Origin: Euperipatoides rowelli
Lineage: Eukaryota; Onychophora; Udeonychophora; Euonychophora; Peripatopsidae
Direction: 5' to 3' (one strand)
DNA length: 20,049 nt
Assembly (NCBI GenBank): GCA_003024985.2
Contig: PXIH01S0000226.1
Translations under genes and position numbers: made by a program
Shown: positions 1 through 20,049 of the stretch, in pieces
Layout: each line of letters begins with the position of its first letter
Numbering within the stretch: position 1 is the first letter of the stretch
Notes under the pieces: generated by a model
Databases searched by the model: none
Told to the model about the DNA's origin: nothing
Seen by the model: the letters and a program-made list of their open reading frames with translations, nothing else

Positions 1-181
1 AATTGTTCTTTATAGTTTTAGGCCAATAGAGGTCACTATCTCTAATTTACATAATCGGTTAAGCTGACCAATCAGCTTTCAGCATCAATAACTCCTAAAC
101 CGCTTGGCCGATTTTAATAAAATTAATTTTATACTTCTTAAAATCACTCCCAGAAGCCCACCACGCCATCAACAGATAACT
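1..181 (+). other. Leader (5' UTR) of element A
   Basis: Non-coding sequence before the likely ORF1 start at 182. It contains one small perfect inverted repeat, AAGCTG (61-66) and CAGCTT (73-78), around a 6-nt loop. An upstream in-frame ATG at 104 would add 26 residues, but the start at 182 has A at -3 and G at +4 and fits the start of ORF1 in element E better. I see no similarity to the 5' leader of element E. No telomeric repeat is visible at the left edge, so the 5' junction of A is not in the window. Confidence 0.5.
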
Positions 182-2135
182 ATGGATGACCAAAATATAG
201 AAAAAGATTTATACCTATCGGACATCTCAAACGGACCCGAGCTGGTTCCCACTGAGGACCCTGAGTCCAGTAAAAATGCTGAACAAGCCCTCCACAATGT
301 GAGCACGGCACTTTTTAGCTGTAACCAACTCTCTACAACAATGACCAATCTCAACACCCTTGTTGACCTTGAGGGCGAGATGTGGGAGAGTGAACTGGTC
401 ACCCAGACCGAAGAAGAGGTTTAACCATCCCTCCCAGTCAAATCTGCAGGAAAGAGTTCCTCAAAGATCCTCCCACCTCAAACTGCATCAGAAAAACCAG
501 TTGCGTCTCCCGCAAACTCTCAGTAAAACGTTCACCAACTCTTTGTTTTACCATCCCCTCAGAAGATATCACCTCAAAGGGCCCTCTTCATGACCCACTG
601 AACCACACAGGTCCCGATATCCCGACATCACCTGAGAACAATCTAATCATATCGGCCTACCATGCCACCAGAGTTCAGAACCAGGCCAGCCCACTGATAA
701 GCAGCAGCCAGGCCCCTATAACCATTCCCCAAGAAGCCTGTCCGTCGCTAGTCTCCTCCGACACCCCGACTGAACCAACTGACAGCAGCTCATCCAGGGG
801 TGTCAAGGAAAGAAATGAGACAATAATTCTAGAAGGATACCTCCAGTCCATGGTTTGGGTCTCGCGCACATTCGGGTACTCATTCCAAGACTACCTGTCG
901 GCCGCAGGTCAAATAGTAGGGGATGACAATGTGATCTATTTCAATGGCAACGATCATTCCAGATTCAAAATCACATTTCAACGGCCATCTGTCGCAGAAA
1001 AACTAATAAAATCGGGCCTTAATTTGAACAACACCTGGCTTAAGGCTTACCAACTCGCTGAAAAACCGCTTCTTCTCCTTCTGTACAACGTTCCGCCATT
1101 CATCCCTCATGAGTCACTTTGCACGGCACTCACTCCCTTTGGACAGTGCCTCTCTGAGGACTGCAAATTCGTCTTCACACCCGGCATAAACGAATGTCTC
1201 AAACACATCAAATCACACAGGCGTAAGATCTGGGTCCGCACAAACAGCAATACTGAGATCCCAGATGAAATCACAATCCACTATGCAGGCAACCCCTTCA
1301 AAATTTCCATCTCGGATGGATTGCCCAAATGCTTCGAATGTGGAAAATCTGCCACATCTGGCAAAACTGCAGAGCTTACAATAGGAGTGACCCCAACCTC
1401 CTTAGCTCACAAGCATGAAAAAATTCAGACCAGAATGGCCATCCCACCACCTGGAAGGCCGCTCTGCTCAAAAACATCGAGGCAAAGAGGCCAGCTAAAC
1501 CATTGGCGAAGAACGAATCAACTCTACCTGACCTGAAGTCAAACACACCCACCAATACACCCCGAACAAACATCAACAACGCATTATCAAAACAGTCGCA
1601 GACTAAAAAGATTAAGAATATTCTACGATCCAACCACTCCAGATCCGTCTCGCCATCTGAGGTTTCTATCCAACCCTTGACATTGACTGCAGAAGGCTTT
1701 TTTCCTCCTCAACCTGACATCCAACAAATCTGGGACCCCGGAGCCGATGTCTCTGACACAGAGCCCAGCCGAACATCAGTTGATGATAAGGACCAGTTCA
1801 TCTTTGAAAACATCGCCGACAATGCTTTTCAAAGTCGAGACTCTAAAGGCAGCTTCCCAACCCAACTACTCTTAGAAATCAATGTAAATAAAGCAAGACT
1901 ATTACTTATTGAAAATGAAGAAGAATACCGACAAGAAAGAACTTATAACAAGCTTACAGAATTAGTAGATGCTGCCTACGATCAACAGGCAATGGTGACA
2001 ACAGTCAGTAAGAACTCCCGGAAGAGACATCCATCATCCTCACAGGATGACTTGTCCTCCACTACGTCTACGTCGACAAACGACTACCAAAGTAGTAACA
2101 AAAGTAAAAAAGGTAAAGCTGAGAAAACACATTAA
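182..2135 (+). pseudogene. ORF1 (gag-like CCHC RNA-binding protein) of element A, broken
   Basis: Nucleocapsid-like ORF1, about 650 codons over three frames. The first part (182-424) ends in an acidic stretch, EMWESELVTQTEEE, which matches WEDECVTTTEE in ORF1 of element E. A TAA at 422-424 and a frame change between about 425 and 510 follow. The next frame stays open to about 1350 without an early ATG. It carries an RRM-like segment (YNVPPFIPHESL, FGQC, KHIKSHRR) and the first half of a zinc knuckle (CFECGK). A 1-base loss near 1346-1352 splits the knuckle; the other half (HIWQNC) is in the third frame. A TGA at 1416-1418 interrupts that frame before it runs to the TAA at 2133-2135. Near the C-terminus is SKGSFPTQLLLEINV, a motif shared with elements B and D. 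The tail is Ser/Thr/Lys-rich. This layout is known from Tx1-type ORF1 proteins; RNA binding is inferred. Confidence 0.85.
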
Positions 2136-2189
2136 CTGAACTTTTACATTAAAACAGCAGTCACAAACGCTATATACTAGATCACCATA

Positions 2190-5100
2190 ATGGACATAAC
2201 AACTATAACTCTAAACACCTGTGGCCTAAAGACACTTGACAAAAAAGCCAGCCTCATTGCATTCTTGGAAGATCAGCGGTGTGACATCGCCTTCTTGCAG
2301 GAGAACAAATGCTCCAGGCTATACATTCAAAATAGAGCCTGGAACTTCTTCTCCTCACAACTAGGCATAAATAAATGATGGGGCACCGCCATTCTACTAA
2401 ACAATGAAAAAGGTAAATTTGGGAAAACTAGTATTGTTGACGGATTCAACAAAAAAGACGGAAACCTCTTTGCCATCAAACCCGTCATTAACAACCTCAA
2501 AGTGACGCTGATCTCTGTTTATCTGCCATCGAAACCCATAAACAGAAGGATAGCCCTAATCAATAAACTAAAGACTCTCCTCCTGTCCCTCGATCACGGT
2601 CCAATAATACTTGGTGGCGACTTTAACTGTGACTCTTCAAACCAAATGAGCAATGACCTCTACATGTCACTAGACGAGGCTGGGCTGAGCAACCTCTGGC
2701 AAATATTCAAAGGCAACACACCCGGTCACACACCTTTATCCGGTCCAAGAACAGAATTGACAAAATTTTTATCTCTTCAAGCCCCAATAGAGTAACCGGC
2801 AAGACCATTGACAGGCTAAACTGTGGCTTCTCTGATCACTACACTGTCTCCGCCACCATCCAGATTGGCACCAATGCATTGGGCCACAAATCGCCAGTCT
2901 GGAAATGCCCTGAGGAAGTCTTTGAGTCCCCCGCCGCACACAAAAAACTAATCGATTTCACCGATCGACACTTTAACAATAAAACCGGGGACATCTTTCA
3001 GCTATGGGAAAGCTTTAAAGAAACCATCCCTGATGAAATTAGAAACATCATGATGATTACTAAAGACTTAATCAAAAAATTCAAGTCAAAACGATCGGAC
3101 ATAAGAATAAAAGACTTCACCACACCCACAATGACCAACACAAATAATATTACAGAGAATATCGCTAACCAAGCTTTTCTGGTCAACTGGGACACTCAAA
3201 TGATCATGAACTATAGCATCGATCTGGGACATGGGCTGCACCGACTTGAAACTAAATTCTGGAACTCCACATGCAAAACCCTCAACACAAAAAATTCTGC
3301 AAATTCGAAAAGATCGAAATTGATGGTAAACTGGCCTCTACCCCCAGCGAGATCCATTCAATAATCTTCAACACCTTCTCTGCACAACTAAAAGCTTTTG
3401 AGCACACCACACCAATAGACCCCATCTGGCTGGCCAATATCAAAAAGCTTGAAGCACCAGTCAGCAAAATGGTCACTAGGCCGCCCTCAATTGAAGAAAT
3501 TGAACACATCGTCAAAGACTTCAAAAATGGTAAAACACCCGGTCTGGACGGTCTCACAGCCCTATTGTATAAAAAGCTACTTCCTCAACTATTAAAACAT
3601 CTCCATAGGCTGATGGTTGAAATCTTCACAACCGGTACCCTGCCTAAATCTTGTCAAGAGGCGTACACAGTCTTCATCCCAAAAAGAGTGACCTAACTAA
3701 ATTCTCGGAGTGGAGACCAATCACACTACAGAATCTAAACTACAAAGTCTTCTCCCGGGTCATGGCAAATAGACTGATGGAGATTGCCGACCAGTCAGTC
3801 TCTCCAGAACAGGCATATTCAATCAGAGGAAGGTGTATGCTAGGGAATGTCAATGCAACACATGACATTGTCTGGTTCGCCAACAAAAATCGACAACAAA
3901 TAATAGTCGCCTCTCTGGACCAGGCAAAGGCATTCGATTCGGCCTCTCATGTCTTCTTGGACAAAATACTTAATGCACTCAACCTCAATGACCACTCCAG
4001 GAAATTGATCGGCCTAATCTATAAGGACTCTGCCACACATCTTCTAATAAACGGGTCCCTTACTAAGGGCATCCCAGTCAATCGTGGCATCCGGCAAGGT
4101 GACCCTAGCTCAGGGGTCCTCTATTCACTGTTCATAGACCCCCTGGTCATACAACTCAAGAAATCTCTCCTACCAACAGCCTTCAAGATCGGTAGAAAAC
4201 GATTCCCACTGTCAGTATATGCGGACGACATCACATTGTTTATGTCATCTCCAGAAGGCCTACAGAACGCCTATAAAATATTCAGAGAATTTGGCAGATC
4301 CTCCAGCGCATCCCTCAATGAAGGAAAAACTCAAATTCTCGTTACTGACCACTGTTCACAACATTGTAAAAATACATTATCCCCAACAGGCACTAACAAC
4401 ATCAAATGTCTAGGCATAACCTTTGGCAACCTAAACACCGACCGAGTCAACTACCAAAAGGCAATTACCAAACAAAGAGCCACTGCTAACAAGATCCAGC
4501 CAATATTAAATAAAACAACCTACACTATCTGGGTCAACCTCATTAAAACGTACTTAGTATCACAAGTGATGTATACGATGCACACAATTGCCCCTACAGC
4601 AAAAGAGGTCAGTGAAATAAACTCAATTCTCACTAAAACATTCTGGGGCAATCGCAGATGGAAATGGGTCGCCAGAAAAATTCTAATCCTCCCAAGAGAG
4701 AACGGTGGACTCGATTTCCCTGACCCAGACATAAGATTTAAGACCTGCCAACTAAGCCGCATCTGCAGACTTCAAAACGCTAGTAAAGATAGTCTCGAAG
4801 CCAGGACTATGAAAGCAGTCATGGACAACTGCGGATCTGGAACACTGGGCACCAAATACTTCTTCTGCACTGCTGACAGCTTCCCTTCTGGTATGTTCCC
4901 GCCAGAGTACAAACACATCTGGACCACACTGGATCTTGCAGGGGCATGCCCTCCAATTCCAAACCTGAAACAACTACTTGCACAACCTGCCTACCACAAT
5001 AGGATCCTGTCAGCCCAAGGTGTGACATTCCTGAATTGGAACACCTGTCGGATTGACTACTCAATCTCCTCTACAACCACATCTCAGTGCAGACTCAAGG

Positions 5101-5839
5101 GGGCCGAACTAGTTTCTTCTCAGATACTAGACTGGCTAGGAGCAAGATATACACTAGCAGAAATTCGAGAAAATCTCAATAGTAAAACTAAACTCCGACT
5201 CCACGCCAATTGCATTCCACACGGAATATTGTATTGAGTGCACCACTAACAAAATTCAAGAATGAAAAGTCCTTAAAACAGTATACACCGGGCGAATTGT
5301 ACAAGAACCTCCTAAACTTAAAGAACATAAATACTCCTAAACCAATTCCAAGAACCATCAGCCACTTGAACATAAAATGGACTCAGTTACGGCACCCCTG
5401 CATACCAGGGCACTGGTCTGACACGATGTGGAGAGCCCTGCACGACCGACTAACCTCACCCAGGAGAAATTTTAAAATGGGGATCCAGGACACTCCACTA
5501 TGTCCCTTGTGTGACAAACTTGATGAGGACAACCTCCACATCTTCAAAGACTGTCTATACAATGGCGACATGCACAAAGAACTCAGGCTCACTATTCTGA
5601 ACTTACAAAACAACAACTCACAAAGCGAAACCCTTAAAAAAATCACAAAGAAGAGAACAAGATGGATCACACGTGCAGCTGAATTCCTCTACATCTACAC
5701 CATATATAAATTATTCAATGCTGTGGTCAATGACAATCTGGATAAACTAAAAAAACCTGAGCTATGGTTCAGAGCCCTCTTCAAGTATTATCTAGAGGCA
5801 CTGTGCTTCCATTATAAAGATAGTCTTAGACCACCATAA
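2190..5839 (+). pseudogene. ORF2 (APE endonuclease + reverse transcriptase) of element A, broken
   Basis: About 1,216 codons spread over several frames, starting 54 nt after ORF1 in a good Kozak context. The endonuclease carries LNTCGL, FLQEN, SVYLPSKP, GGDFN, NRIDKIF and SDH, the standard APE catalytic motifs. The RT carries WRPITLQN, SLDQAKAFDS (motif A aspartate), NRGIRQGDPSSG (motif B), SVYADDITLF (motif C) and CLGITFG. A C-terminal finger, CPLCDKLDEDNLHIFKDC (C-x2-C-x8-H-x4-C), and PELWF lie near the end. Defects: TGA at 2376-2378 where element B has Arg, and frame changes near 2731-2738, 3291-3300, 3681-3685 (one A lost from a run) and 5225-5235. In the family, ORF2 nicks the target and reverse-transcribes its own RNA there. 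The long open stretch 3651-5237 contains most of the RT. Confidence 0.93.
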
Positions 5840-5950
5840 TTTAGAAGGCGCCATATTGGGACTTCCGGCCATCAAAACTGGGCTTATTACACTCCAATTT
5901 TGATTCCCATAGGGGGGTGTCCCAAAGGGGGAGGCACAGAAATCTACTGT

Positions 5951-5986
5951 GCATGTGCAGAACCTTCCTGGACCTACTGCACATGC
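5951..5986 (+). other. Perfect 10-bp inverted repeat (RNA hairpin candidate)
   Basis: GCATGTGCAG at 5951-5960 pairs with CTGCACATGC at 5977-5986 across a 16-nt loop. It lies about 110 nt after the ORF2 stop. I see no equivalent at the same place in element B, so conservation is not shown. Confidence 0.5.
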
Positions 5987-6727
5987 CATCCAGTGTCCAT
6001 CATACTTCAATTTCCTTTAAATATAAACTTCCAAACTACCAAATTCAAAGCCATTTCTCCAAGCCAATAAGTGTCGCACAACCTTAATTCTTCCAGATTG
6101 TATACTCAATTAATATACACCAAAACATAATCTGTCAAAGAAAATCGCCTCCCTAAACAACTATAGCCTCCAGACAACTTTCAAAACACATAGTTGGAAA
6201 ACTGCCAAAAAACATCTCCCACTAGCATCAAAGAACCCACACTAAAAACTACCCCAACAACAAGACACTGAACGATATGAAGCAGTCAAGAACCAAATCT
6301 CACATAAACAACATCTCCAGTCTAACATACAACCCAGAGAACACTCTATACAACCAGTCAGGACTCTCAAACCAATGAACATTCCTTTTCCTGAGACTCC
6401 CATTGAACTTTAAAAACACTAAACCTCAACCAGCCAAGAACACTTAATTTGCAGCTCTCAAAAAACTTTAAATAAACATTCATCAAGAGTCCAGGTGCAA
6501 CTCTCTGAGCGCCCTAGAACTGATCAAGTTTAGATTGCCAAATGAATAGATGATTTTGTACCGTGAAAATGACGATACCTATAACTAACACCTTCCATCC
6601 TTAGTTCAAAGTTTCTGAAATTGACTCAATTCCTTGCATAAAGTCGGGGATCCAGGGGCACGTGTCATGCTGGTTACTAAATCATGTGGTCCGCCCACAA
6701 TCTAAAATCAGTCCTCTGTCATCGGAC

Positions 6728-6750
6728 ATGCCTATAAATGGCCTCTAGTC
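6728..6750 (+). promoter_or_regulatory. Conserved TATAAA block in 3' UTR of element A
   Basis: The core CCTATAAATGGCCTCTAGTC matches the block at 13777-13799 of element B with two transitions in 23 bases, inside UTRs that otherwise do not align by eye. TATAAA is at 6733-6738. It could be a Pol II promoter facing the next downstream copy, as known for the 3' region of Drosophila HeT-A, or another conserved RNA signal. Function is inferred. Confidence 0.4.
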
Positions 6751-6814
6751 CGAGCGACAGAACAGGGCAACAAACTCATCCCCAGACCACAGCACATTGA
6801 GGCCCGCCTTGCTC

Positions 6815-6865
6815 ATAGCTCAATGGAGTAGCACTGCTACACATGGGGAGAGCCTTGTGCACATA
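6815..6865 (+). other. Degenerate tRNA-like (A-box) segment
   Basis: TAGCTCAATGG resembles a Pol III A box and D-loop. The following TGCTACACATGGGGAGAGCC resembles the anticodon-side region of tRNA-derived SINE heads. No good B box (GGTTCGANNCC) sits at normal distance; the nearest candidate, GGTCGATCGCC near 6893, is poor and too far. It could be a decayed SINE head or chance. Confidence 0.22.
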
Positions 6866-7202
6866 CTGGAGTACCGCCTGTCACCTGCCCTGGTCGATCG
6901 CCCACTCTCTTGAATTTTTTAAGATCAAACCTCACCAAAGTTCCTGGCATTACCCATGAGTTTCCATGTACTTACTCCTGAGCCATGTCAGTGAACGCTC
7001 ATCTTGGGGTAGTTAGTAGTATAAATGCTGAGTGAATAATACTGTTTGTCCCTGTCCAATTGTCCTTTCAGTTCCAATTGTTTCATAATTGTCACCAACG
7101 CCTCATCAATCCTCCCTCACTTCCATTCATGCCCATCTCACCAACACCCTAAGGTGCATCACGTCTTAATGAGGATTAAACCCCCATCTAGGAGTGTCGG
7201 AC

Positions 7203-7239
7203 TGTGCCAGATCAGGTACTTGGTTACCTGTCTGGCACA
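7203..7239 (+). other. Strong hairpin, 15 paired bases with one bulge
   Basis: TGTGCCAGA (7203-7211) pairs with TCTGGCACA (7231-7239). After a single bulged T at 7212, CAGGTA (7213-7218) pairs with TACCTG (7225-7230) around the 6-nt loop CTTGGT. All 15 pairs are Watson-Crick. It lies 0.4 kb before the 3' tail of element A. I did not find a counterpart in element B. Confidence 0.6.
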
Positions 7240-7535
7240 TGAGACCTTACCCTATGTTCCTATGGAAGGGATGTGACCCCTAGGCCTGCTCCCCAGCAGA
7301 TCACCAGTGGCCACCCCAAGTCCCTTCCCTGCAGAAAGATACTAACCTATCCAACTGCAGTGGAACATCCCCCTTCCTCTCCTCCCCCTGAACTCTCACT
7401 TGGGGATAGTCAAGTGCCATTCAGGGGTCCTTCAAATTTCATCTATCATCAACTTATACACACTTCATTTTTCTTATTAGATATTTTATTTCAGTTTATC
7501 CAAAGAAAAGTACATTACCATTATTTCCTCAGCAA

Positions 7536-7569
7536 GCTCTCACCTGGGAGTAAACCCTCAGGCAAGAGC
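7536..7569 (+). other. Hairpin just upstream of the 3' tail of element A
   Basis: GCTCT (7536-7540) pairs with AGAGC (7565-7569). After a symmetric CA/CA internal loop, CCTG (7543-7546) pairs with CAGG (7559-7562). It sits about 40 nt before the conserved tail, roughly where element B carries a different fold (14746-14861). Confidence 0.35.
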
Positions 7570-7607
7570 ATAGATCTATCATATGTCTTCTATCATTCTG
7601 TGGATAC

Positions 7608-7746
7608 CTATCTGCAAAACCCTTATCTATGACTTTATCTTCTACTGTCAATAAAAAGTTTTTGATTCCTTGCACTCCAACTCTCGGGGCCCAATGCTTT
7701 CACCCCTCTACCAAGGTGAAAATATCCCGGACGAGGAGGCAGGATG
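7608..7746 (+). promoter_or_regulatory. Conserved 3' tail of element A with covarying hairpin
   Basis: About 140 bp closely matching 14906-15046 of element B, although the rest of the two UTRs has diverged. Shared blocks include TATCTGC/CATCTGC, AATAAA (7650-7655), GATTCCTTGCACTCC, CCCCTCTACCAAGGTG and GGCAGGATG. At 7698-7721, TTTCACC pairs with GGTGAAA around the loop CCTCTACCAA. Element B keeps the loop exactly but changes the stem with compensation, which points to selection on RNA structure. In related LINEs a 3' stem-loop is what the RT recognises, so that is the likely role here. The element ends within a few bases, then (CCCTAA)n begins. Confidence 0.8.
7650..7655 (+). terminator. AATAAA poly(A)-signal-like hexamer, element A
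   Basis: AATAAA, conserved at the same place in element B. The conserved tail hairpin begins 43 nt downstream of this signal. Ordinary cleavage 10-30 nt after it would remove the hairpin, so it may not define the end of the transposing RNA. Confidence 0.4.
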
Positions 7747-7752
7747 ACTACA

Positions 7753-7792
7753 CCCTAACCCTAACCCTAACCTAACCCTAACCATAACCCTA
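7753..7792 (+). repeat. Telomeric tract 1, (CCCTAA)n with variants
   Basis: About 6.7 units of CCCTAA, including one 5-mer (CCTAA) and one CCATAA. It begins a few bases after the 3' tail of element A and stops at CCCTA, where element B starts inside ORF1. The + strand is the C-rich strand, so if this region was once terminal the chromosome end lay to the left. Confidence 0.95.
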
Positions 7793-7794
7793 CA

Positions 7795-9127
7795 GGGAAA
7801 ATTGTCGGGAATCAAAATGTCATTTCCTTTAATGGTGATGATAGGAGTAAGGTTGAAATAACGGTTAAAAGTCTGAAAATGGTCGAGGTAATTGTACGTC
7901 GTGGTCTTACAATTGACAGAGCGTGGTCTCGTGCTTACAGGTTGGCAGAAAAGCCAATGTCGATTGCATTAAGCAATGTTCTGCCTTTTATTCCACATAA
8001 GGCCATCTGTCAAAGTCTTGCATTTTTGGGGCAGTGTACTCCTAGTGATTGCAGGTTTGTTCTTGCGCCGTGCGAGAACAAAGCTTTAAAACACATTAGG
8101 TCTTATAGAAGGCACGTTTAAATAAGGGTTGAGGGAGATGTCACTATCCCTGAATCAGCTTCTGTTCGTTTTGGGGGGGAAGGACTTTTGGTATAACATA
8201 TCAAGTGGAGTTCCTAAGTGTTTTGGGTGTGGGGGAGTAGGTCATTACAAGAATAATTGCACTAATCTCGGTGCTAGTTGGTTGGGGGGTGAGTCCTCTC
8301 AAAGTAAATCTAAAGTGGTCTCTGGTGATGTCATTAAATCACCATGGAGAGATGCACTACTGAATAAAGGTAATGGAGAAAGTAGTGTGTCAGTGAAGAA
8401 TGTTGGTGGCGATACCGAAGTGTTACATACGAGTGCAGGACCCAGTACTCAAGGTGAGGATGTGCGCCCCCTTAAGGTGAACCCTGGTGGTATAGGACCT
8501 TCACCAACTGTAGATGTGGGTGGAGCAAGGTCAAAGTGTCTTGCTATGGAGTTGAAGGTGAATAAAGGGTCAGGGTGGGCTGCGGTCAACAGGGCTGTGT
8601 ATAATAAGGGTCTGCACAGTTTTAAAGTCAGTGAGGTGAGTGGTGAAATAGGTGACGTAGGGGATCGAGATAAGGATGGGTGTGATAATCTTGAATATGA
8701 TCCAAAGTATAAAGAACAATTGTGTTTGATTATTGATAATGCTGTAGAAGTAAGGTCTAAAGCGGGTGAATTTCCAAGGGATTTACTGCTAGAAGTGAAC
8801 ATTAGGTAGGCTCAGGCCGTTGTACAGCATGTAGACAATGCAGAGTTTTTTGATAATGATAGTAGATTTAAAGCTGTGCATGAGTTTATTGATGAGGCCT
8901 CAGTTGCGCAGCATATGAATGAAGAGCTGTCTAACAACANTAGGAAAAGGGATAACCCTTACGGTGAGGAGGATCTATCATCTGTTGCTTCCATCAGGAT
9001 GGTTGGTCATTTAAGTATGAGTGGTGCAGGCAACACTACAAAACTTGTGAATAAGGATAATAATAAAGGGCAATATGTTAAGAATAACGGTGGGAGTAAG
9101 AGAGGAAGGGTAGATAAGTTTTTATAA
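7795..9127 (+). pseudogene. ORF1 (gag-like CCHC protein) of element B, 5'-truncated and broken
   Basis: The reading frame opens at the telomere junction with no start codon of its own; the ATG at 7879 is internal. SRAYRLAEKPMSIAL, NVLPFIPHKAI and KHIRSYRRH align with ORF1 of element A. A TAA at 8119-8121 and a frame change in the seven-G run at 8173-8179 follow. The next frame carries an intact knuckle, CFGCGGVGHYKNNC (C-x2-C-x4-H-x4-C), then SPWRDALL and, near the C-terminus, FPRDLLLEVNIR. A TAG at 8807-8809 breaks this motif region; the frame then continues to the TAA at 9125-9127 with a Lys/Asn-rich basic tail. An ambiguous base (N) is at 8940. The likely role is RNA packaging or chaperoning in the retrotransposon particle, known for the family and not testable in this broken copy. 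Confidence 0.85.
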
Positions 9128-9229
9128 AATTTTGTTAAAAGTTTTTGGAAATTATTTTTTAAAAAAAATTTTTTTAATTGTTATATTTTTGAGTATAAAA
9201 GATTCTAGAGTATTTATTTAAATCTATTA
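9128..9229 (+). other. AT-rich spacer between ORF1 and ORF2 of element B
   Basis: 102 bases, almost all A and T, with long T and A runs near 9158-9180 that could fold back. Element A has only a 54-nt spacer here. No start context or known internal entry element is recognisable. Confidence 0.4.
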
Positions 9230-12200: not shown

Positions 12201-12858
12201 TCTGCGGCACAACTGTTGAGTAGTAAACCTGAGGTGGAGGAACTACATTTGGGGTGCTTGCCCTTGGGGCTTGTGAATGCTCAGCTGACTAACTTTGAAG
12301 GAGCCAAGGGTCTGGGTGGCTATGTTCCCCATCAGGTGTATGCTAATGTGATGAGGATTTTATATGACGGCGACCCTGTATGTGTTCCTAAAGTAGTTGG
12401 GAACACTCCAATAGGGTGGAAACAAATTTGGAGCGTGAGTATTCCAGGGGCCTGGTCAGATGTTATGTGGAGGGCGCTGCATGATAGGCTCGGTTCCCCT
12501 CATCACAATTACAAAATGAAAGTCTTGGAATCTCCCTTATGTCCGATATGTGACATTTTCGATGCAGATAATCTGCATGTGGTAGAAAGTTGTCATTATC
12601 CTGAAAGTGTAGGTAGAGAAAGGAAAAGAATTGAAAAGGAATGGCTGAATAGTGTGGTTATCAAAAATGTGGTGTTAAAACAAGTGCTAAAAAAGAAAGG
12701 GCGTTGGGTGAGGCGTGCTGCCATGTTTCTAGGTGTCTACACCTGTTATAGAGAAAATGATTCTGACAAGGCACCCTGAACTGTGGTTCAGGGCGGTATT
12801 CTTGTACTACCTAAAAGAGCTGTGCTATGGAAGGGAGGTTAATTTTAGGCCACCATGA
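9230..12858 (+). pseudogene. ORF2 (APE endonuclease + reverse transcriptase) of element B, broken
   Basis: Starts at ATG 9230. Endonuclease motifs are ITINVLGL, FLQETK, SVYVPSKP, AGxFN (the catalytic Asp codon holds an N at 9658), NRLDRVF and KSDH. RT motifs are WRPITLQN, SLDQAKAFDS, NRGVKQGDPSSG, SVYADDVTLF and SLGIIFG. The C-terminal finger is CPICDIFDADNLHVVESC, and HPELWF follows near the end. Defects: TGA at 10037-10039 (element A has Leu), a base lost between about 10282 and 10291, a frame change near 11570-11585, and a small deletion with a frame change near 12735-12765. The true stop is TGA 12856-12858, matching the RPP-stop ending of element A. The main RT block, 10318-11570, is otherwise open. 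Function as in element A: target nicking and reverse transcription at a telomeric site (inferred). Confidence 0.93.
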
Positions 12859-13149
12859 GTGAAGTGGCCACGAGTAAATTAGATGTGAGTAGTTGAGACG
12901 GAGTTTCTGATAGTCTGCAAAGGTGGTAATTTCAGATCTCTGTAACGAAATGCATGTTTTTCTTGTAAACGTTGAGTGTCGTATAAATGAGCATTTTTTG
13001 TCGGAATGAGTGTGGTATTGTATGAGGAATGAATATGAAATAGTCTAATTGGCCGAGTCTTTACTGGAGTTTGGGGAGGGGGCGGTTGTGATGATAAAGC
13101 TAGTGAGGTAGTATTCGCAAGGGTTATCCTCAGTGTGCCTCCTCTATTG

Positions 13150-13243
13150 CGACTGATCGGTTGAGGATGTGCCAAGGTCAGTCGTATTTAAAGATCCTGG
13201 GGAAAAGGATCTTGAAAAGCCACATGGTACTATGGGGCCCCAT
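13150..13243 (+). other. Cluster of three inverted repeats in 3' UTR of element B
   Basis: CGACTGA (13150-13156) pairs with TCAGTCG (13178-13184). AAGATCCT (13191-13198) pairs with AGGATCTT (13206-13213) around GGGGAAA. ATGGGGCCCCAT (13232-13243) is a perfect 12-bp palindrome. Three perfect repeats within 94 bases suggest a folded RNA segment; element A has no clear counterpart. Confidence 0.45.
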
Positions 13244-13776
13244 GCAGTGTAGAGGTTTGTTGGCCCACCTCGTGTCCTTGCTGCTGCTCCTTCCCCTCTT
13301 CAGTGTGGATTCGGTTTATAATTTTAAGTAATGAGTGTTTGAATGAATTATGGAATTAATGGGCTGGGGTGTATTTTATATTTAAATTCTGCTTTGAGGG
13401 GTAGTTTATTATTTTAGTGATTTTGGGGTTCTCTCAATATGGTTTGCTCAATAAGTATGCAAAGCACAATGCTTGATGTGAGATGGCACTTAGATGTAAA
13501 TAACGTGTGGCATGATACTGTAAGTGCTGTTAGGTACTTTTTTGTTGTATTGATCTTTTTTTTCTTTGGCCCTGTAAGTATGTGGGCGGGTTAGGTGTGT
13601 TTGCTAGTGGACATTGGCCTGTTGCTTAGTGCTTTTTTTGGGTGGTGGAACGTAAATATGGTCAGGATCTTTTGCACTACAGGGTGTATCGGTAGTTGCC
13701 TGTTTTCAAGACTTTCGTGCTCCTTTAGTCCTTTTTCAACTTCTGGGACTTTTATCCATGTTGCCATTCACCAGAT

Positions 13777-13799
13777 ATGCCTATAAACGGCCTCTGGTC
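13777..13799 (+). promoter_or_regulatory. Conserved TATAAA block in 3' UTR of element B
   Basis: Core CCTATAAACGGCCTCTGGTC, 21 of 23 bases identical to 6728-6750 of element A; both differences are transitions. TATAAA is at 13782-13787, about 1.27 kb before the end of the element. See the element A entry for possible roles. Confidence 0.4.
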
Positions 13800-14745
13800 T
13801 GGGGTGGGGGCATGGGGTACTTGTGAGGGGTACGGGAGTCTAATCGGAGACTCGCGCCTTGGCATTGGTGCTTTCTTAAGTGTCTCTGCTAAGTGTTAGA
13901 TGTCCTTTTGGAGCATCAGGGGAAGGGCAGGTCTGCCATACATACCGGGGCACCCGATGGCCGTCTGGGTGCATGGGTCTTTGGTCGTCTGTTATTGTTC
14001 TTCACCACCTGATAGTTGCATGATGAATCTCGGTCTGCTTCCATGGTGCATCACCTGGCCCTCCACTGCTTGTAGTGCTGAATCAAAGATGTACGTGCTA
14101 GTGGTTAATGACGTGTTGTGGCCAACATTGAAATCTTACATGCTATATTTTTGTCTCTCAATTGTTTTGCTTAGTGCTGGCCTTGTTGGCAGATAGGATA
14201 TTTTGATTTTGGGGGCTTTTACTTATTTAAAGTATCTTTTTTTGATGTATGATTGTAGTGCGTTTCGAATGAATGATTGTGGCTGTCTTGGTTTTGTGTT
14301 CGTGGTTATGTCATCATCTCGCCCATTTATCCTTCATCAATTTCCTATTTCGTTTCATTTCCTTTCATCTTCCCCTCCTCCTTATGCAGGCATTCAATAC
14401 TGGTTTTGGTTGTTTCGCATGAGGTCTGATCATTTTTCCGCCTTCCCTGTGATCTGGATGTAGCAACTTAGACTGCTTTTTTTTGTCAGCTAAGCAGAGT
14501 TCACTGGTTGCTACTAAGTCCAATCCTGAAATTTCTTGGTTAATTCCAAGGATTTCTGAGGGACTGTATCATCTTCCTTCCCCCCTGTTCCGCCTGTTTG
14601 GTGATGGTGAAATGGGTGGTTCGGGTACTTCAAATTACATTTGATCGTTTTATTACTACTTATGTATATTATGTGTGATATAATAATTTTTCTTTTCTAC
14701 TTATTAGGAATTCTTATCACGGCGAAGGAAGTATAAGTAATATGT

Positions 14746-14861
14746 CGGAGTGCAGTGAGCCTGTGCTACATTCCCTCAACTAGTGGACTGAAGAGATAGT
14801 TCTGCTGTCTCTTTTTTGTTCACATGTCTTGAGATAGTGGTACCATTCTCGCTGCACCCCG
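14746..14861 (+). other. Long stem with internal hairpin before the 3' tail of element B
   Basis: CGGAGTGCAGTGAG (14746-14759) pairs with CTCGCTGCACCCCG (14848-14861): 12 Watson-Crick pairs, one G-U and one mismatch. Inside, AAGAGATAG (14791-14799) pairs with CTGTCTCTT (14805-14813) with one G-U and a 5-nt loop. The structure lies just upstream of the conserved tail. Confidence 0.45.
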
Positions 14862-14905
14862 ATGTTCTAGAAATCTGTCATAATTATGTCTCTGTCATTT
14901 GGCGG

Positions 14906-15046
14906 GCATCTGCCCATTTAAACCCTCTGTATCTTTGACTCTGAATAAAAATTGTTTCGATTCCTTGCACTCCGACTCTTGGTGCCCAGCATCACACCCC
15001 TCTACCAAGGTGTGGTGTACCGTTAGGAAGAGGCAGGATGGGCTAT
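14906..15046 (+). promoter_or_regulatory. Conserved 3' tail of element B with covarying hairpin
   Basis: Counterpart of 7608-7746. It has AATAAA (14944-14949), GATTCCTTGCACTCC, CCCCTCTACCAAGGTG and GGCAGGATG. At 14990-15017, CATCACACC pairs with GGTGTGGTG (nine pairs, one G-U) around the loop CCTCTACCAA, identical to the loop in element A. Two stem positions differ from A on both sides while keeping pairing. It ends at GGCTATTT, followed directly by CCTAACCC. Confidence 0.8.
14944..14949 (+). terminator. AATAAA poly(A)-signal-like hexamer, element B
   Basis: AATAAA at the same position in the tail as in element A, 41 nt before the hairpin. No poly(A) tract follows at the element end. Confidence 0.4.
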
Positions 15047-15048
15047 TT

Positions 15049-15129
15049 CCTAACCCTAACCCTAACCCTAACCTTAACCCTAACCCTAACCCTAACCCTA
15101 ACCCTAACACTAACCCTAACCCTAACCCT
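15049..15129 (+). repeat. Telomeric tract 2, (CCCTAA)n
   Basis: 81 bases, about 13.5 units of CCCTAA with two variant units (CCTTAA and CACTAA). It joins the 3' tail of element B to the truncated reverse transcriptase of element C. It ends at CCCT. Confidence 0.97.
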
Positions 15130-16794
15130 CTTTGACACTGCATTTTGCCTAGCGGGCTGGGCTTTTTTATTATCTGTTTACGCAGATGATGTCACGTTAT
15201 TCTTTTTGGATCTTGACGAGCCAAACCGGGCAATTGCCATCTGCAAAAGGGTGGGCAGATATTCGGGTGCTAGCCTCAACTACCGCAATACGCAAGTCTA
15301 CCGGACTATGGTGGTGGGACAGGAGTGGGGCACCCTTAAGCTCAGCAATGTTTCATACTCTCNAGAAGGCTTTAAGAGCCTTGGATTATATTTCGGACAA
15401 GCTAGTTATGAGCGCCGCAATTTTGTTGCCTGATTGGAGGGCCTTATCGGCACCCTAGGGCCGATTTTCCGGAGTGTTGATTATGTGTGGCGCACCAAGC
15501 TTGTCAAGGCCTTCCTCTTGTCCAGGATTACCTTTTTAATGCAAGTTTTCAGGGTCACTAAGTTGCAGATTGGATGATTACAGAGTATCATGGGGGGTTT
15601 CTTTTGGGGCAGGAAGCGTCGCAGGTGAGTGAGTACCAAGGTCATGGTGTGGGGCCATAGACAGGAGGGTTTGTCTTTCCCCCACCTGGCCAGTGTGGTT
15701 CAGGCTCTCCATCTGCAGAGGGCAAATAGGTTAACTTCTGGCAGTATTGAGTTGCTAGAAGTGCGGGTCTTTGATGCCGTAATGCAATCCTTTTTTTGGA
15801 ACTTGGGGAGCATCAATATGCTTTTGCAGAGTGGAAGTGTCCTGAGGGGTTGTAAGGTGCCGCCGGAATACGTTGAGCTTTGGGCGGCATTGGACGCGGT
15901 AGAGGCCCGAACAGTGGGCATAAAGCTTTCTGAGATTTTGCAGCAGCCATTTTTTTATAACCGGGTATTGGCATCATGGGTGTTTTCCTTCGAGGGCATT
16001 CCATCGACGGCCGTCGTTTGCACCATAGCACAGATTTTGTGTGGGACAGCGCCCGGCAGTTACCCTGACACTGTTTTTGAGCGAGTTACCAACTTGTTGG
16101 GTGCTAGGTTTTCATTGGCTCGACTCCAACTAGCGTGGGGTCCCCTATGCTGGCTGGAAGACTGTCCTCATCGTGTGTCTGTGGATGTGGGACTTGCGGT
16201 GATGTGTGTGGCACGGGGAGACAGAGTTGTTAGGCTAAAAGAGGTTGATATGCATAGTGTGTATATTATCTACTGAGATAAGTATGTTGAGGGTGGACCC
16301 CGGTGGTTAGGCCAGTAGAGTATATGGGATGAATTTCGTGGGGAATAATGTATAATAAGATAATCCCTCGTAGATGGTCGGACGCATGCTGGAGAGCCGG
16401 GCACGATATCCATCTGACCCTGGTGAGGCATGTGGAGATGGGGTTGGCCCCAGACGCAGTATGTAATCTGTGTGGTAGGCCGGCACCGGACTCTGATCAC
16501 TTCTTCCTTGGCTGCCCGGCCCTGGGACCGCTTCGGCGAGAGCTTGACCAGGCGGTGAGAGTGTGTCGGGGTTTCAAGCGTCGTGTCGACCCTGGTTTTC
16601 AAAGAGTAATTTGGCGATATCGCCGCATTTACGGTCTTATCCCTAGATACCTTTTTTTCTATGTCGCCAGTCGCACCTTTTCCTCAGTTGTGGTGCCTGG
16701 TCTTACGCCGGTTCGGCAGCCGGAGTTGTGGTACCACGAAATGCTGAGACTTTATTTGGCTGCCTTGTTTGATTTGCTGGGAAGCGATGCCTAG
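15130..16794 (+). mobile_element. Element C: LINE truncated inside the RT
   Basis: A third, more GC-rich and more divergent lineage. It begins at the end of telomeric tract 2, about 21 residues before the YADD box, and stops exactly at the ORF2 stop codon. No 3' UTR, tail or telomeric repeat follows; the next base belongs to an ORF1 fragment (element D). Confidence 0.85.
15130..16794 (+). pseudogene. ORF2 3' half (RT motif C to CCHC finger) of element C
   Basis: AFCLAGWAFLLSVYADDVTLF aligns with the motif C region of A and B, followed by SLGLYFG, KLVKAFLLSRITFLMQ and, at the end, the finger CNLCGRPAPDSDHFFLGC and QPELWY. Three TGA codons lie in one frame: 15431-15433, 15575-15577 and 15626-15628, the last where A and B have Trp. 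The frame changes near 16260-16280, and another TGA at 16330-16332 again replaces an aligned Trp. The stop is TAG 16792-16794. An N at 15363 is ambiguous. The endonuclease and the first RT motifs are missing because of the 5' truncation. The short stretch in front that reads as Thr-Leu repeats is only translated telomeric repeat. Confidence 0.88.
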
Positions 16795-17469
16795 TGTTGG
16801 GCAANCTGCAGATCTCTTAAACGAGATGGGAATAATAGTAATGCTACTCCTCCTCCATGTCATTTTGCAGCTAATTCTAGTGGTCAAACTACCCCTTGGA
16901 CGGATGCTTTGACTAAAGGTCTAAACCCCCCTGATCGCCCAGCTCCCTCTATGGGAAGTCTTAGTGATGGGACAGCCAGAGCCCCTGGTCTCCCCAGATG
17001 GACTTCCCCTTCTAAGGATTTGGTACCTAATAAGGTTACCACATTGTATCAGTCTTCCACCACTTCGAATAGGGATCTAAAGAAGCCTTCTTCGAGAGTT
17101 ACTGCTTCTGGTACTCTGGCCCCAAGGGGACTTGCTGCTGAGCCTAGGCCTATACCTCCCCTGCTTCAGAGGCAGCATGATTCAGAGGGGTATCCATTAC
17201 CATCTGCAGGGAACCAATGGGAAATGGACGAGGACTTAACTCATTTGGGTAACAATGACCAAGTTCTGCATTTAGAGGGGGAATATGCTTTTACCCTGTG
17301 TAGTATTTTTCAAGATGCCCTAAGTTATNAGGCTAGCAAAGGTAATTACCCTACCTCATTACTCCTAGAAATCAATGTAGAAAAGGCTCTGAATGCCATC
17401 AATGATAATGATGCTTTCTTTTCACAGCAGAGCTTTAAGAATAGCAGACAAGCTTGTCCTCCATTTTAA
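16795..17469 (+). pseudogene. ORF1 fragment (end of CCHC knuckle to C-terminal motif) of element D
   Basis: Open in one frame from the junction to TAA 17467-17469. It starts with the last five residues of a CCHC knuckle (CWAxC then RSLKRDG), an N at 16805 lying in the fourth. Then comes TTPWTDALTKG, matching SPWRDALL of element B and a Trp-Lys-Ala-Ala-Leu-Leu run in element A. A Pro/Ser-rich linker follows, then SKGNYPTSLLLEINVEKA, the motif shared with A and B. N at 17329 falls in a codon that could be Lys, Glu, Gln or stop. Similarity to the other ORF1 proteins ends around 17450, so the last few codons are probably not original. The ATG at 16909 is internal. Confidence 0.8.
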
Positions 17470-18810
17470 AGGGCGCTCTGCGAGTGCCCCATGGGGGGGG
17501 GGGGGTATCACAAAAAAATAAGAAAAAATTCATCCTCCCATGGGTTTCAAGGGCCCGAGCCTCTGAGTTACACTCCCACCCCCAGCAATGGGGCTGTTCT
17601 GGTGCAGGGTTATTAGTTCTGTTTACTTCGCAGTGTGTTTTAGTCCCTGTTGTCGTGTTGGTGATGGTAAGGACAGTCCTAGTATCGGGTTTCCGGGCCA
17701 GACTGTGGTCGTTGTTTTTGGCGTGAGGTCAGGTGGCAGGTTGGGGTTGTGGGTGCGGTGGGCACGGTGCATCTGGGGTTTGCTGCAGAAGGGGGGTTAT
17801 TGATACAGGGGTGCTTTGGTGGCCTCACTGTTGGGGGCGGGGTTCTTTTCCTCTTGTTCCTTGTTTGTGATTGTGTTTCCTGTGCTGCACTGCATATCTG
17901 CAGTTGGTGTATGTGAGTGAATGTGTTTGTGATGTGTGGATATCTGGCACCCCTGGGAGGTGCTCAGGAACAACTATTTTGGGTGGCTTAGCCGGGCCTG
18001 TCACCTGTTTTTTATCCAGGTGTCTGTGCTTATATGATTATGTGCAGGTCGCACGTTGATTTTTTGTGATTTTATTTATTTTTCCCCCTTTTTTGGGTGG
18101 GGTCTACGTGAGGGTGGGGGGGGAGGGGTTCCTCCCCCACTGTTTTCTTTCGCTTAATGTGTATGTTTTTTTTTAATATTCATTTTTTATCTTTTTAACC
18201 GTCTAGGGTTTGTGGTTTGGGTCGGATAGGGCCCTTCCCCTTGTAGTTCAGCGCTTCCGTTTTTTTTTGTGCATTTTCACATCAGGAACACGTGTTTTCA
18301 GGGTTTTTCCCTGTCAGCATGTTTTTTACTGTGTTGGTTTTTCACCATTGTGGCATATCATTAGGTCTGGCTTGCTTACCCTGTGCAGCCGGGTGACATT
18401 GCACTTTGTCATCTGTCGTCCTTTTATCCTCATCCCAGATTCCATTTATTCCATTTATTCGGGGTTTTTTTTTTGGTTTGTTTAGTGTGTCCCATTGTTG
18501 TTTGTTGTTGCACCCTGCATGTTTGCTTGCTTGCGTACCTCTGTCCTTGTTTCCATTCCAGTCCAATCCTGCAGCAGCTTGTGGTCAATCCCTCCTTTGG
18601 AGATGGAACTGGGAGTGCTGTGGGGGTGGACTGGTGCAGTGGAGACGGGGACGTGGGTGTAGGACCTGCAGATTGTGTGTCCTGGGAGGCCATGGGCTCC
18701 GAACACTTATGGCTGGGCACCGGCATGTCCCTGTGGGGCTTAGGCCTTAACACAGAGACCGAATCCAGGGTCTGGTTGTGTTCAGGGGCATGGTCTCTAT
18801 CGGTTAGTTT
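17470..18810 (+). other. G/T-rich stretch of unknown origin, 3'-UTR-like
   Basis: No recognisable coding region. It has a 13-G run at 17493-17505, many T runs and a composition like the 3' UTR of element B. ORFs here, including 18383-18943, are hydrophobic or low-complexity and the longer ones run through the telomeric tract. Near its end, AGAGACC (18754-18760) pairs with GGTCTCT (18792-18798), with CCAG/CTGG inside the loop. I see no AATAAA-plus-tail block as in A and B. It is probably the 3' UTR of another telomeric element. Confidence 0.45.
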
Positions 18811-18817
18811 CCTAACC
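18802..18817 (+). other. Fold-back at the junction with telomeric tract 3
   Basis: GGTTAG (18802-18807) pairs with CTAACC (18812-18817) across TTTC. One arm is telomeric and the other lies in the flanking sequence, so a telomere-like unit faces the tract in opposite orientation. It may be chance. Confidence 0.35.
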
Positions 18818-18831
18818 CTAACCCTAACCCT
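18811..18831 (+). repeat. Telomeric tract 3, (CCCTAA)3.5
   Basis: 21 bases of perfect CCCTAA repeat. Like tract 2 it starts after TTT with CCTAACCC and ends at CCCT. It separates element D from the leader of element E. Confidence 0.93.
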
Positions 18832-19050
18832 CATTGCTGACTTAGAAGTCGGCCTGGAAGGTTGTGTGGAACTGCAGCTCCTCATTTTGGTTTATAACTC
18901 AACTTTGATTCGAGGTAAGGTGATTAAATTATACATTTTCTGAAAGTAGAGATCAAGATCTATAACCCAAGATTAATTTAGAAAAAAAATTTAAAAATTT
19001 TCTGTCAAGAAATCGTGTTTGATGCTAGTTTCGTTTTACATGTATAAATT

Positions 19051-19621
19051 AACATGGGGAGTATAGGAAATTTCATGTAGTGCCCATTCATAGGTTCAGT
19101 TTTGATTTTCTTTCAAAAATTCTTGCTTCCCCCCTATATAAGTGACCAGGTTCGCACCTGGTCCAATTAGTAAAAATTTGATTAATTGATTTGTAAAATT
19201 TTTTTGAAATTTCCCTTGATTATTGATTTCCCATGTTAAAGTTTAACATGGGGAGATAGGGATTTTCTCCTTTTGCATTTTTTTGAATGAAAATTTTGAA
19301 ATTGTGTTAAATTAATGATAACTAGCCTATGTAAACTATACCTTTTAAACACTTTTTAACTAACAGAATTTTTGTTTAGAGATTATTAATGATTTTAGAA
19401 AATTTTCCAAGCTTAATGATTTTTATATGCTAAGATTTAACATGGACAGATAGGAACGTTTTTTTGGGTGATTTATTGAATGGGAATTTTTGATTTTCTT
19501 GATTTTTTTTTTAAATTTTCTGGTATAAATTGACATCTCCAACTACATTTCTTTGGAAAAAAAAAAAGAATCCGACTCATAGTATAGATTTTGTCAGTCA
19601 ATTCTGGTGCTTGTTAAATTT
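19051..19621 (+). repeat. Three diverged ~194-bp tandem repeats
   Basis: AACATGGGGAG starts at 19051 and recurs at 19245 (AACATGGGGAGATAGG) and 19439 (AACATGGACAGATAGG), both steps exactly 194 bases. A shorter partial copy, TTTAACATTAAT, begins near 19619. Units 2 and 3 also share TTGAATG followed by an AATTTTTGA-like stretch; unit 1 is more diverged. Each unit is T/A-rich. Confidence 0.6.
19135..19163 (+). promoter_or_regulatory. TATA-like box followed by a perfect 8-bp inverted repeat
   Basis: TATATAAG at 19135-19142 follows a C run. GACCAGGT (19144-19151) and ACCTGGTC (19156-19163) form a perfect stem around TCGC. The palindrome sits where a transcription start would be expected from the TATA box. 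Its GGTTCGCACC core also resembles a Pol III B box with mismatches. Promoter function is inferred. Confidence 0.4.
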
Positions 19622-19644
19622 AACATTAATCAATCACTGATAAA

Positions 19645-20049
19645 ATGAGTGATTTTAAGTCACAAGCTGATTCCACACCTATTAAGGACCCCCCGGTGGG
19701 CCATTCTGATGTACCACAGTCGGCTGGCATCATTACCACTAGAGACAAGACCAAGCTTTTTGACGGACAGCTCGAGGTAGATCTGTTTGTGTCAGACTCT
19801 AGTTCTGACATTAATGGTGAGGATTTGACATGGGAGGATGAGTGTGTCACTACAACTGAAGAAAAATCAGTGCTCCTTCCTTCCTCCCATCATTTCCTTA
19901 AGGTTTCTTCCCCAGTCTCCACTCATGTTACTAAAACGACCAGACATATATCCCGTACATTTTCCTTAAAACAGTCTCCTACTAAGAAACTATATTTCCT
20001 TGATGCTCTTGGTAGGCAACTCCCTCAGCAGGATCTGACTAAAAAATTT
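19645..20049 (+). CDS. ORF1 N-terminal part of element E (continues past the window)
   Basis: ATG at 19645 with A at -3; 135 codons open to the end of the window without a stop. The first 75 residues are acidic and contain TWEDECVTTTEE, matching the end of the first ORF1 segment of element A. The following residues are Ser/Thr-rich and basic (VSTHVTKTTRHISRTFSLK, then QSPTKK). These match a stretch of element A near 511-545 that reads SRKLSVKRSPT in its second frame. That correspondence supports both this start and the frame assignment in A. The knuckle and RRM-like region would lie to the right, outside the window. Predicted role: RNA-binding gag-like protein. Confidence 0.75.
   Translation, partial: MSDFKSQADSTPIKDPPVGHSDVPQSAGIITTRDKTKLFDGQLEVDLFVSDSSSDINGEDLTWEDECVTTTEEKSVLLPSSHHFLKVSSPVSTHVTKTTRHISRTFSLKQSPTKKLYFLDALGRQLPQQDLTKKF

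Follow-up and report, generated by a model that had tools for sequence, protein, structure and literature searches.

To our knowledge, telomere-targeting long interspersed nuclear elements (LINEs) are few, and the best studied of them are insect elements aimed at TTAGG. The excerpt of PMC10088271 available to us counts SART/TRAS, GilM/GilT, Zepp, MoTeR1 and Tx1-1_ACar among the telomeric LINEs and assigns such elements to four clades (CRE, L1-like, R1 and Jockey). Citing Kojima and Jurka 2013 (Repbase Reports), it places Tx1-1_ACar in telomeric tandem repeats of the green anole, and the cited title calls this element a telomere-specific Tx1 non-long-terminal-repeat (non-LTR) retrotransposon (PMC10088271). 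The endonuclease (EN) of TRAS1 from Bombyx nicks TT^AGG on the bottom strand, as stated in the accessible part of PMC7265360. Here we describe an array of LINEs joined by telomere-like repeats in a 20,049-nt stretch of the Euperipatoides rowelli genome (contig PXIH01S0000226.1; hereafter the window). The window is almost entirely LINE DNA on the + strand and consists of five segments of broken copies, E1, E2, E3a, E3b and E4.

We consider it probable that the array was left by a clade of L1-group LINEs that uses target-primed reverse transcription to enter TTAGGG/CCCTAA repeats and has a structured tail replacing poly(A). The reading is carried by recurrent junctions with telomere repeats, a single orientation in each array, a register bias at both ends, a covarying 3' tail and coding selection on the reverse transcriptase (RT). 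The window corresponds to C110:30399-50447, the right end of the 50,447-base contig C110, of which C110:1-30000 reads N; the assembly is a gapped draft of 100.9 Mb in 4324 contigs, whose contigs and loci are given here as C and L numbers, respectively. A sequence-only reading of the window had described five LINE segments in one orientation, with (CCCTAA)n at three of the four joins, and this is confirmed by tracts at 7752-7792 (E1/E2), 15049-15129 (E2/E3a) and 18811-18831 (E3b/E4), while the E3a/E3b join near 16795 has none. Its proposal of several lineages holds as well, since relative to the RT of E2 that of E1 is 51% identical and that of E3a 30%, indicating more than one lineage in the window.

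A search of the whole assembly for exact (CCCTAA)4 yields three places, all of them at most a few bases past a LINE tail; the reversed control yields none. With the last 116 bases of E1 as a tail query, 20 contigs yield 29 matches, of which two belong to the window itself. CCTAA lies within 16 nt past the tail in 22 of the 29 copies, compared with 1.5% of 20,000 random stretches of fetched DNA, and at least two CCTAA lie within 45 nt in 19 copies, compared with 0.4% of these stretches, which supports the earlier suggestion that this LINE group targets TTAGGG/CCCTAA repeats. None of the 29 tail-found junctions shows a clear poly(A) tail: the only run of eight A within 60 nt, at L024, starts about 40 nt downstream, beyond the repeats, and at L025 CCTAAC is followed by five A and the end of the contig. 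The tail-found copies thus do not present the pattern that would have spoken against telomere targeting, namely most copies lying in non-telomeric DNA with poly(A). In a wider census, (CCCTAA)2CCCT matches 36 times, in what we group as 17 tracts, and the reversed pattern does not match at all. Ten of these tracts adjoin a recognised LINE tail, two further ones lie within arrays (window 18811; C207:22777, next to a gap), and five are found elsewhere, in satellite (C577, C2275 and C4198) or in other DNA (C1885:6936 and C1922). Tract lengths range from 9 to 117 bases, and 13 of the 22 tail-flagged tracts are shorter than 25 bases. The assembly contains no (CCTAA)4, which would be a sign of TTAGG telomeres, and the telomerase profile PF12009 has no match in it, which is uninformative, as the control genomes give none either.

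The orientation and register of the junctions are also ordered. On the six contigs with at least two tails, all 15 tails share the strand within their contig (chance 1/512), and the strands of RT (at least 40% match) and tail agree on 13 of the 14 contigs that carry both. Register was counted on 22 tail-flagged tracts out of 42, with C470:48582 and C110:49209, missed by the tail filter, outside the 22, and C207:23160, which runs into N, excluded from the 5' figure. At the 3' junction the tract starts with CCTAAC in 15 of the 22 (binomial 1.1e-7 against 1/6), although these events are not independent if CCTAA is borne by the element. At the 5' junction the tract ends with AACCCT in 11 of 21 (binomial 1.9e-4); AACCCT precedes the recurrent 5' untranslated region (UTR) starts CATTGCTGAC, GATTGGCTGA and CACTTCCTGTTTGGC, as well as the truncated E3a. 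In our view, this 5' register bias is the strongest indication that the target is chosen. Target-site duplications are unreadable here, as one repeat serves as both target and flank.

The LINE copies of the window, their tails and the tracts that join them are as follows:

1-7746, + strand: broken LINE copy E1, with pieces of open reading frame (ORF) 1, EN pieces, RT, zf-RVT and a 1.9-kb 3' UTR; its 5' end is not seen in the window
2211-3046, 3651-5237 and 5210-5839, + strand: EN pieces, RT (RVT_1 7.6e-35) and zf-RVT (2.7e-8) of E1, respectively
7664-7746, + strand: structured 3' tail of E1, a covarying 83-nt hairpin with AATAAA at 7650 and 28 further matches in the assembly, E2 among them
7752-7792, + strand: telomere-like (CCCTAA)n tract, mildly degenerate, from Tandem Repeats Finder
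7793-15040, + strand: broken LINE copy E2, 5'-truncated within ORF1, starting at about 7793, with a long 3' UTR
8219, 9230-10039, 10318-11628 and on to 12779, + strand: zinc-knuckle motif, EN, RT and zf-RVT region of E2, respectively
14959-15040, + strand: structured 3' tail of E2, with AATAAA at 14944; it scores 82 bits in the tail model, which was built partly from it
15049-15129, + strand: telomere-like tract of about 13.5 CCCTAA units, from Tandem Repeats Finder
15130-16794, + strand: broken LINE copy E3a, the 3' part of ORF2 of a further lineage (RT end and zf-RVT region)
16795-18810, + strand: E3b, with an ORF1-like piece at 16807-17433, then DNA without a match to 18810
18811-18831, + strand: shorter telomere-like tract, CCTAACCCTAACCCTAACCCT
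18832-20049, + strand: LINE copy E4, whose 5' UTR begins CATTGCTGACTTAGAAGTC directly after AACCCT; ORF1 runs from 19645 and leaves the window

E1 is also matched in tblastn by the ORF1 and ORF2 products of other copies. E2 matches RVT_1 at 4.1e-30 and Exo_endo_phos at 2.8e-5 (24.4 bits, just under the cut-off of 24.5), and its zf-RVT region scores 25.8 bits against 27.5. E3a is covered by tblastn matches at 15140-16135 and 16333-16767, each 29% identical, and its zf-RVT region scores 26.6 bits against the cut-off of 27.5. The ORF1 match of E4 spans 19768-20043, and an E4-like 5' start after a CCCTAA tract is also found on C127 and C943. E3b starts straight after the ORF2 end of E3a (window 16795), and its 3' end, CCTAACCC, lacks the common hairpin tail; E3a and E3b are either a rearranged copy or a lineage with a different tail. 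Spaced similar stretches such as GTTAAAGTTTAACATGGGGAGATAGG occur in 5' UTRs (window 18832-19645; L005 1615-2400) and are possibly promoter units. The window contains no Rfam family at gathering thresholds.

The 3' tails share a structure. The 24 aligned tails form one long imperfect hairpin of 25 pairs, with 96.3% of cells paired and double-sided changes in 12 of the 25 pairs. None of 500 shuffles, which ignore relatedness, reaches the hairpin in any of five measures, and the paired share drops to 42-48% in slid structures. This alignment (A1) comprises 24 of the 27 extracted tails and omits L044, which has a deletion in the hairpin, and the diverged L080 and L081; outside the 27 are L020 and L030 (no pass for the AATAAA-like signal), L038 and L039 (no GGATG), and L063 and L064 (pattern mismatch). 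A covariance model of the 24 tails, run on 54 sources totalling 211 kb with E-values that are rough, recovers tails outside it. Four of these adjoin CCCTAA: L080 (2.5e-8), L063 (8.7e-6), L081 (1.6e-4) and the second of two tails matched in L038 (1.5e-13). The model also finds L020, L030 and L039, and gives a weak match to L057 (E 0.6). In 26 of the 29 copies (25 identified by script and L039 by eye), AATAAA stands upstream of the hairpin, at roughly 100 nt from the junction, and the hairpin may bring AATAAA and the junction together. The usual tail end and junction read GGATG NN CTACA CCTAA. A conserved structured 3' tail common to the copies, as found here, is a feature of the stringent-type LINE, a term taken from the accessible part of PMC4176376; in a LINE of that type the RT would also depend on the tail.

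The proteins point to an L1-like group. A 1207-aa ORF2 frame on C4243 matches Exo_endo_phos (3.7e-15), RVT_1 (1.4e-32) and zf-RVT (7.9e-8), and ORF1 frames of more than 700 aa with a zinc-knuckle motif lie on C4007 and C2280, the motif of C4007 being sub-threshold in Pfam (14.4 against 20.8 bits). Among solved structures, human L1 ORF2p is the best match of the RT (3e-35), with R2 next, and the LINE matches of the EN are L1-type constructs (best 3.7e-9). The 12 PDB sequences with a match at E <= 0.1 include no molecule named R1 or TRAS1, and the tree described below is without an R1 RT. An APE-type EN preceding the RT, with both domains nearest L1, places these elements in the L1 group (L1 and Tx1 clades), as had been proposed from the window. 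The nearest database RTs are 34% identical (P0001; P0002 from Ixodes) and the best full-ORF2 relative 26%, both homologue searches covering proteins that share exact words. In a 50-row tree, the 15 RT copies of this assembly make up a single clade (100/100) that excludes the rows from human L1, plants, alga and tick; most of the deeper forks are weak. The tree combines 15 RT matches of at least 300 aa with 35 rows from 116 candidates, namely a human L1 segment and 115 database proteins, some of which carry an organism name only, after rows with less than 220 aa of domain and unnamed rows beyond the first 25 were dropped; without named Tx1, R1 or CR1 references, it shows the monophyly of the 15 relative to its rows and not the name of the clade. 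Across the 105 pairs within the clade, RT identity reaches at most 69%, with a median of 44%; the 12 closest pairs show a nonsynonymous divergence (dN) of 0.23-0.41 and a synonymous divergence (dS) that is at least 2.2 or saturated. These values indicate old lineages whose RT evolved under purifying selection. More distant LINE RTs, with 23-31% identity, are also found in the assembly, for example at C156:20320-21399, C2445:5407-6453 and C589:49248-50078.

We infer the nick site, the priming by CCUAA and the telomeric location of the arrays along the following lines. The APE-type EN would nick the G-rich strand of the repeat, the strand that the 3' junction points to as the primer, and the RT would bind the RNA at its conserved 3' hairpin. 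The RNA end could then pair with a TTAGG primer, so that reverse transcription would start in a fixed register without poly(A), and the other end would be joined at CCCT^AA, mostly in one register. Later elements entering the short tracts between older ones would build head-to-tail arrays. The nick would be TTAGG^G if the tail ends with CTACA; if the element carries CCTAA, as L021 and L030 suggest, it could be TT^AGGG, opposite the CCCT^AA of many 5' junctions and resembling the TT^AGG nick of TRAS1 (PMC7265360).

Several observations weigh against targeted insertion with a common tail. The copies were sampled by tail rather than by RT, which makes them an uneven sample of the family, and the tracts are short and often degenerate. 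Ten of the 29 tails have fewer than two CCTAA. The tails of L018, L020 and L035 sit in satellite with CCTAA-like units; L021, L025 and L030 have a single CCTAA followed by other DNA or the contig end; the units of L027 and L029 are degenerate, and L026 and L043 lack CCTAA. In L037, one of the 19 copies with at least two CCTAA, the second is out of repeat order. On C3709 the RT match is on the - strand and the tail on the + strand, and 10 of the 21 tract ends, that of E2 included, depart from the preferred register, several by a single base. As for the tail, the model misses the tail-like end of L064 (C470:53184) and finds no match of the common tail in E3b, and single-tail folding only mildly beats shuffles (z -2.0 for E1, -1.5 for E2 and -0.3 for L063), with L080 (z -4.1) as an exception.

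The satellite just mentioned has a period of about 80 bp and combines CCCTAAC-like units with TATGTATTAAACCCAC-like sequence (L075, L078, L079, L020, L035; L018 from about 1612, C3576:24844-25875). As the bearer of three LINE tails, it is likely an off-target site.

Of the other explanations, addition to chromosome ends survives best, though we regard it as rather unlikely. LINE RNA would be reverse transcribed from the 3' overhang of the G strand, telomerase would then extend the 5' end with TTAGGG, and repeated cycles would build the array; such end addition is the mode of HeT-A. It would produce the observed orientation, with the 3' end followed by CCCTAA, and 5' starts after AACCCT, as in 11 of 21 tracts, could be obtained by telomerase acting on the new end. 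However, the elements code for an EN domain, which end addition does not need, and the three tails in interstitial satellite (L018, L020 and L035) look like nicking events. End addition shares its target with EN-primed insertion and differs from it in the priming step, and the two are not mutually exclusive.

It is less probable still that CCCTAA is part of the element, as an RNA-made repeat tail or a product of RT slippage, with new copies entering old tails and telomeres not being the original target. That CCTAA follows the tail even before non-telomeric DNA (L021 and L030) or at a contig end (L025) fits this view and means that CCTAA at least may be element-borne, and the variable tract lengths, 9 to 117 bases, fit it too. 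However, CCCTAA is also found directly at the 5' junctions of different elements, in one register in 11 of 21 cases, which needs a choice of target, and insertions also occur in the separate CCTAA-bearing satellite. Moreover, the same repeat stands beside the diverged tails of L063, L080 and L081, and CCCTAA is the usual animal telomere unit. A simple-repeat tail as the sole explanation is disfavoured, as the 5' junctions share a register too.

An assembly chimera, in which unrelated sequences were wrongly connected through repeats at LINE ends, is very improbable: the draft is gapped (4324 contigs) and mixed with bacterial DNA, but tail-linked tracts recur on 13 contigs with shared registers and consistent orientation, and tracts of less than 25 bases (13 of 22) offer little to mislead an assembler. 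Bacterial-looking genes for DnaK (L082, C85:9638-11416), a DnaK-like protein (L083, C380:500-2100) and MreB (L084, C425:33700-34140) are spirochaete-like by eye, and the assembly therefore seems to mix animal and bacterial DNA. An HSP70 search gives four matches at three places, all bacterial-looking, a COX1 search gives none, and 24 rhodopsin-type G-protein-coupled receptor matches in the assembly point to animal DNA.

Beyond target-primed insertion itself, we tentatively entertain a more specific picture, which is quite possible but falls short of being likely, in which an ancient animal L1-group clade of a dozen or so lineages targets telomere repeats by a 3' RNA hairpin with an element-borne CCUAA at its end. 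If CCUAA is element-borne, the element RNA would end with CUACACCUAA, without poly(A), and the transposon RNA itself would carry a short telomerase-like template in its place. A diverse TTAGGG-aimed clade under coding selection, with a structured tail replacing poly(A), would, if real, illustrate the way in which LINEs become dependent on telomere repeats; TTAGGG is also the telomere repeat of vertebrates. With its conserved tail and preferred registers, the clade opens the priming step to direct tests.

Compared with known systems, these elements combine familiar features in a different way. Human LINE-1 is not known to be telomere-specific and depends on poly(A), and its ORF2p, the nearest solved RT (3e-35), falls outside the clade in the tree. 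Zepp is an L1-like case from the plant lineage, and Drosophila is without telomerase repeats. TRAS1 carries a poly(A) tail and has TTAGG as its target, whereas the elements described here have an L1-like EN and RT and a hairpin without a clear poly(A). TRAS1 also differs in belonging to the R1 family, according to the excerpt of PMC10088271, but it too inserts into telomere repeats, and its nicked G-rich strand, as given in the accessible part of PMC7265360, would prime here too. SART1 of Bombyx has a fixed register at its junction with the telomere repeat, as here (same part of PMC7265360). Zepp (Chlorella), GilM/GilT (Giardia), MoTeR1 (Pyricularia) and HeT-A/TAHRE/TART (Drosophila) are retrotransposons at telomeric repeats or chromosome ends in the PMC10088271 excerpt, and FoTeR (Fusarium) is likewise so described in partial sources. 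Tx1-1_ACar, compared by its description in the same excerpt only, resembles the window elements in lying in the telomeric repeats of an animal and differs in that here many lineages fall in one clade. The sequence-only reading had seen a distinct case in a telomere-specific Tx1 LINE of an animal, a claim weakened by the existing report of Tx1-1_ACar from the green anole (PMC10088271, excerpt); absent from the list of known elements in that reading, Tx1-1_ACar means that an animal LINE of this type is not new as such. Open-licence literature listings and abstracts yielded no report of a multi-lineage telomere-targeting clade with a hairpin replacing poly(A). Telomere-specific LINEs are thus known, and what is apparently new here is a multi-lineage L1-group clade with a hairpin tail.

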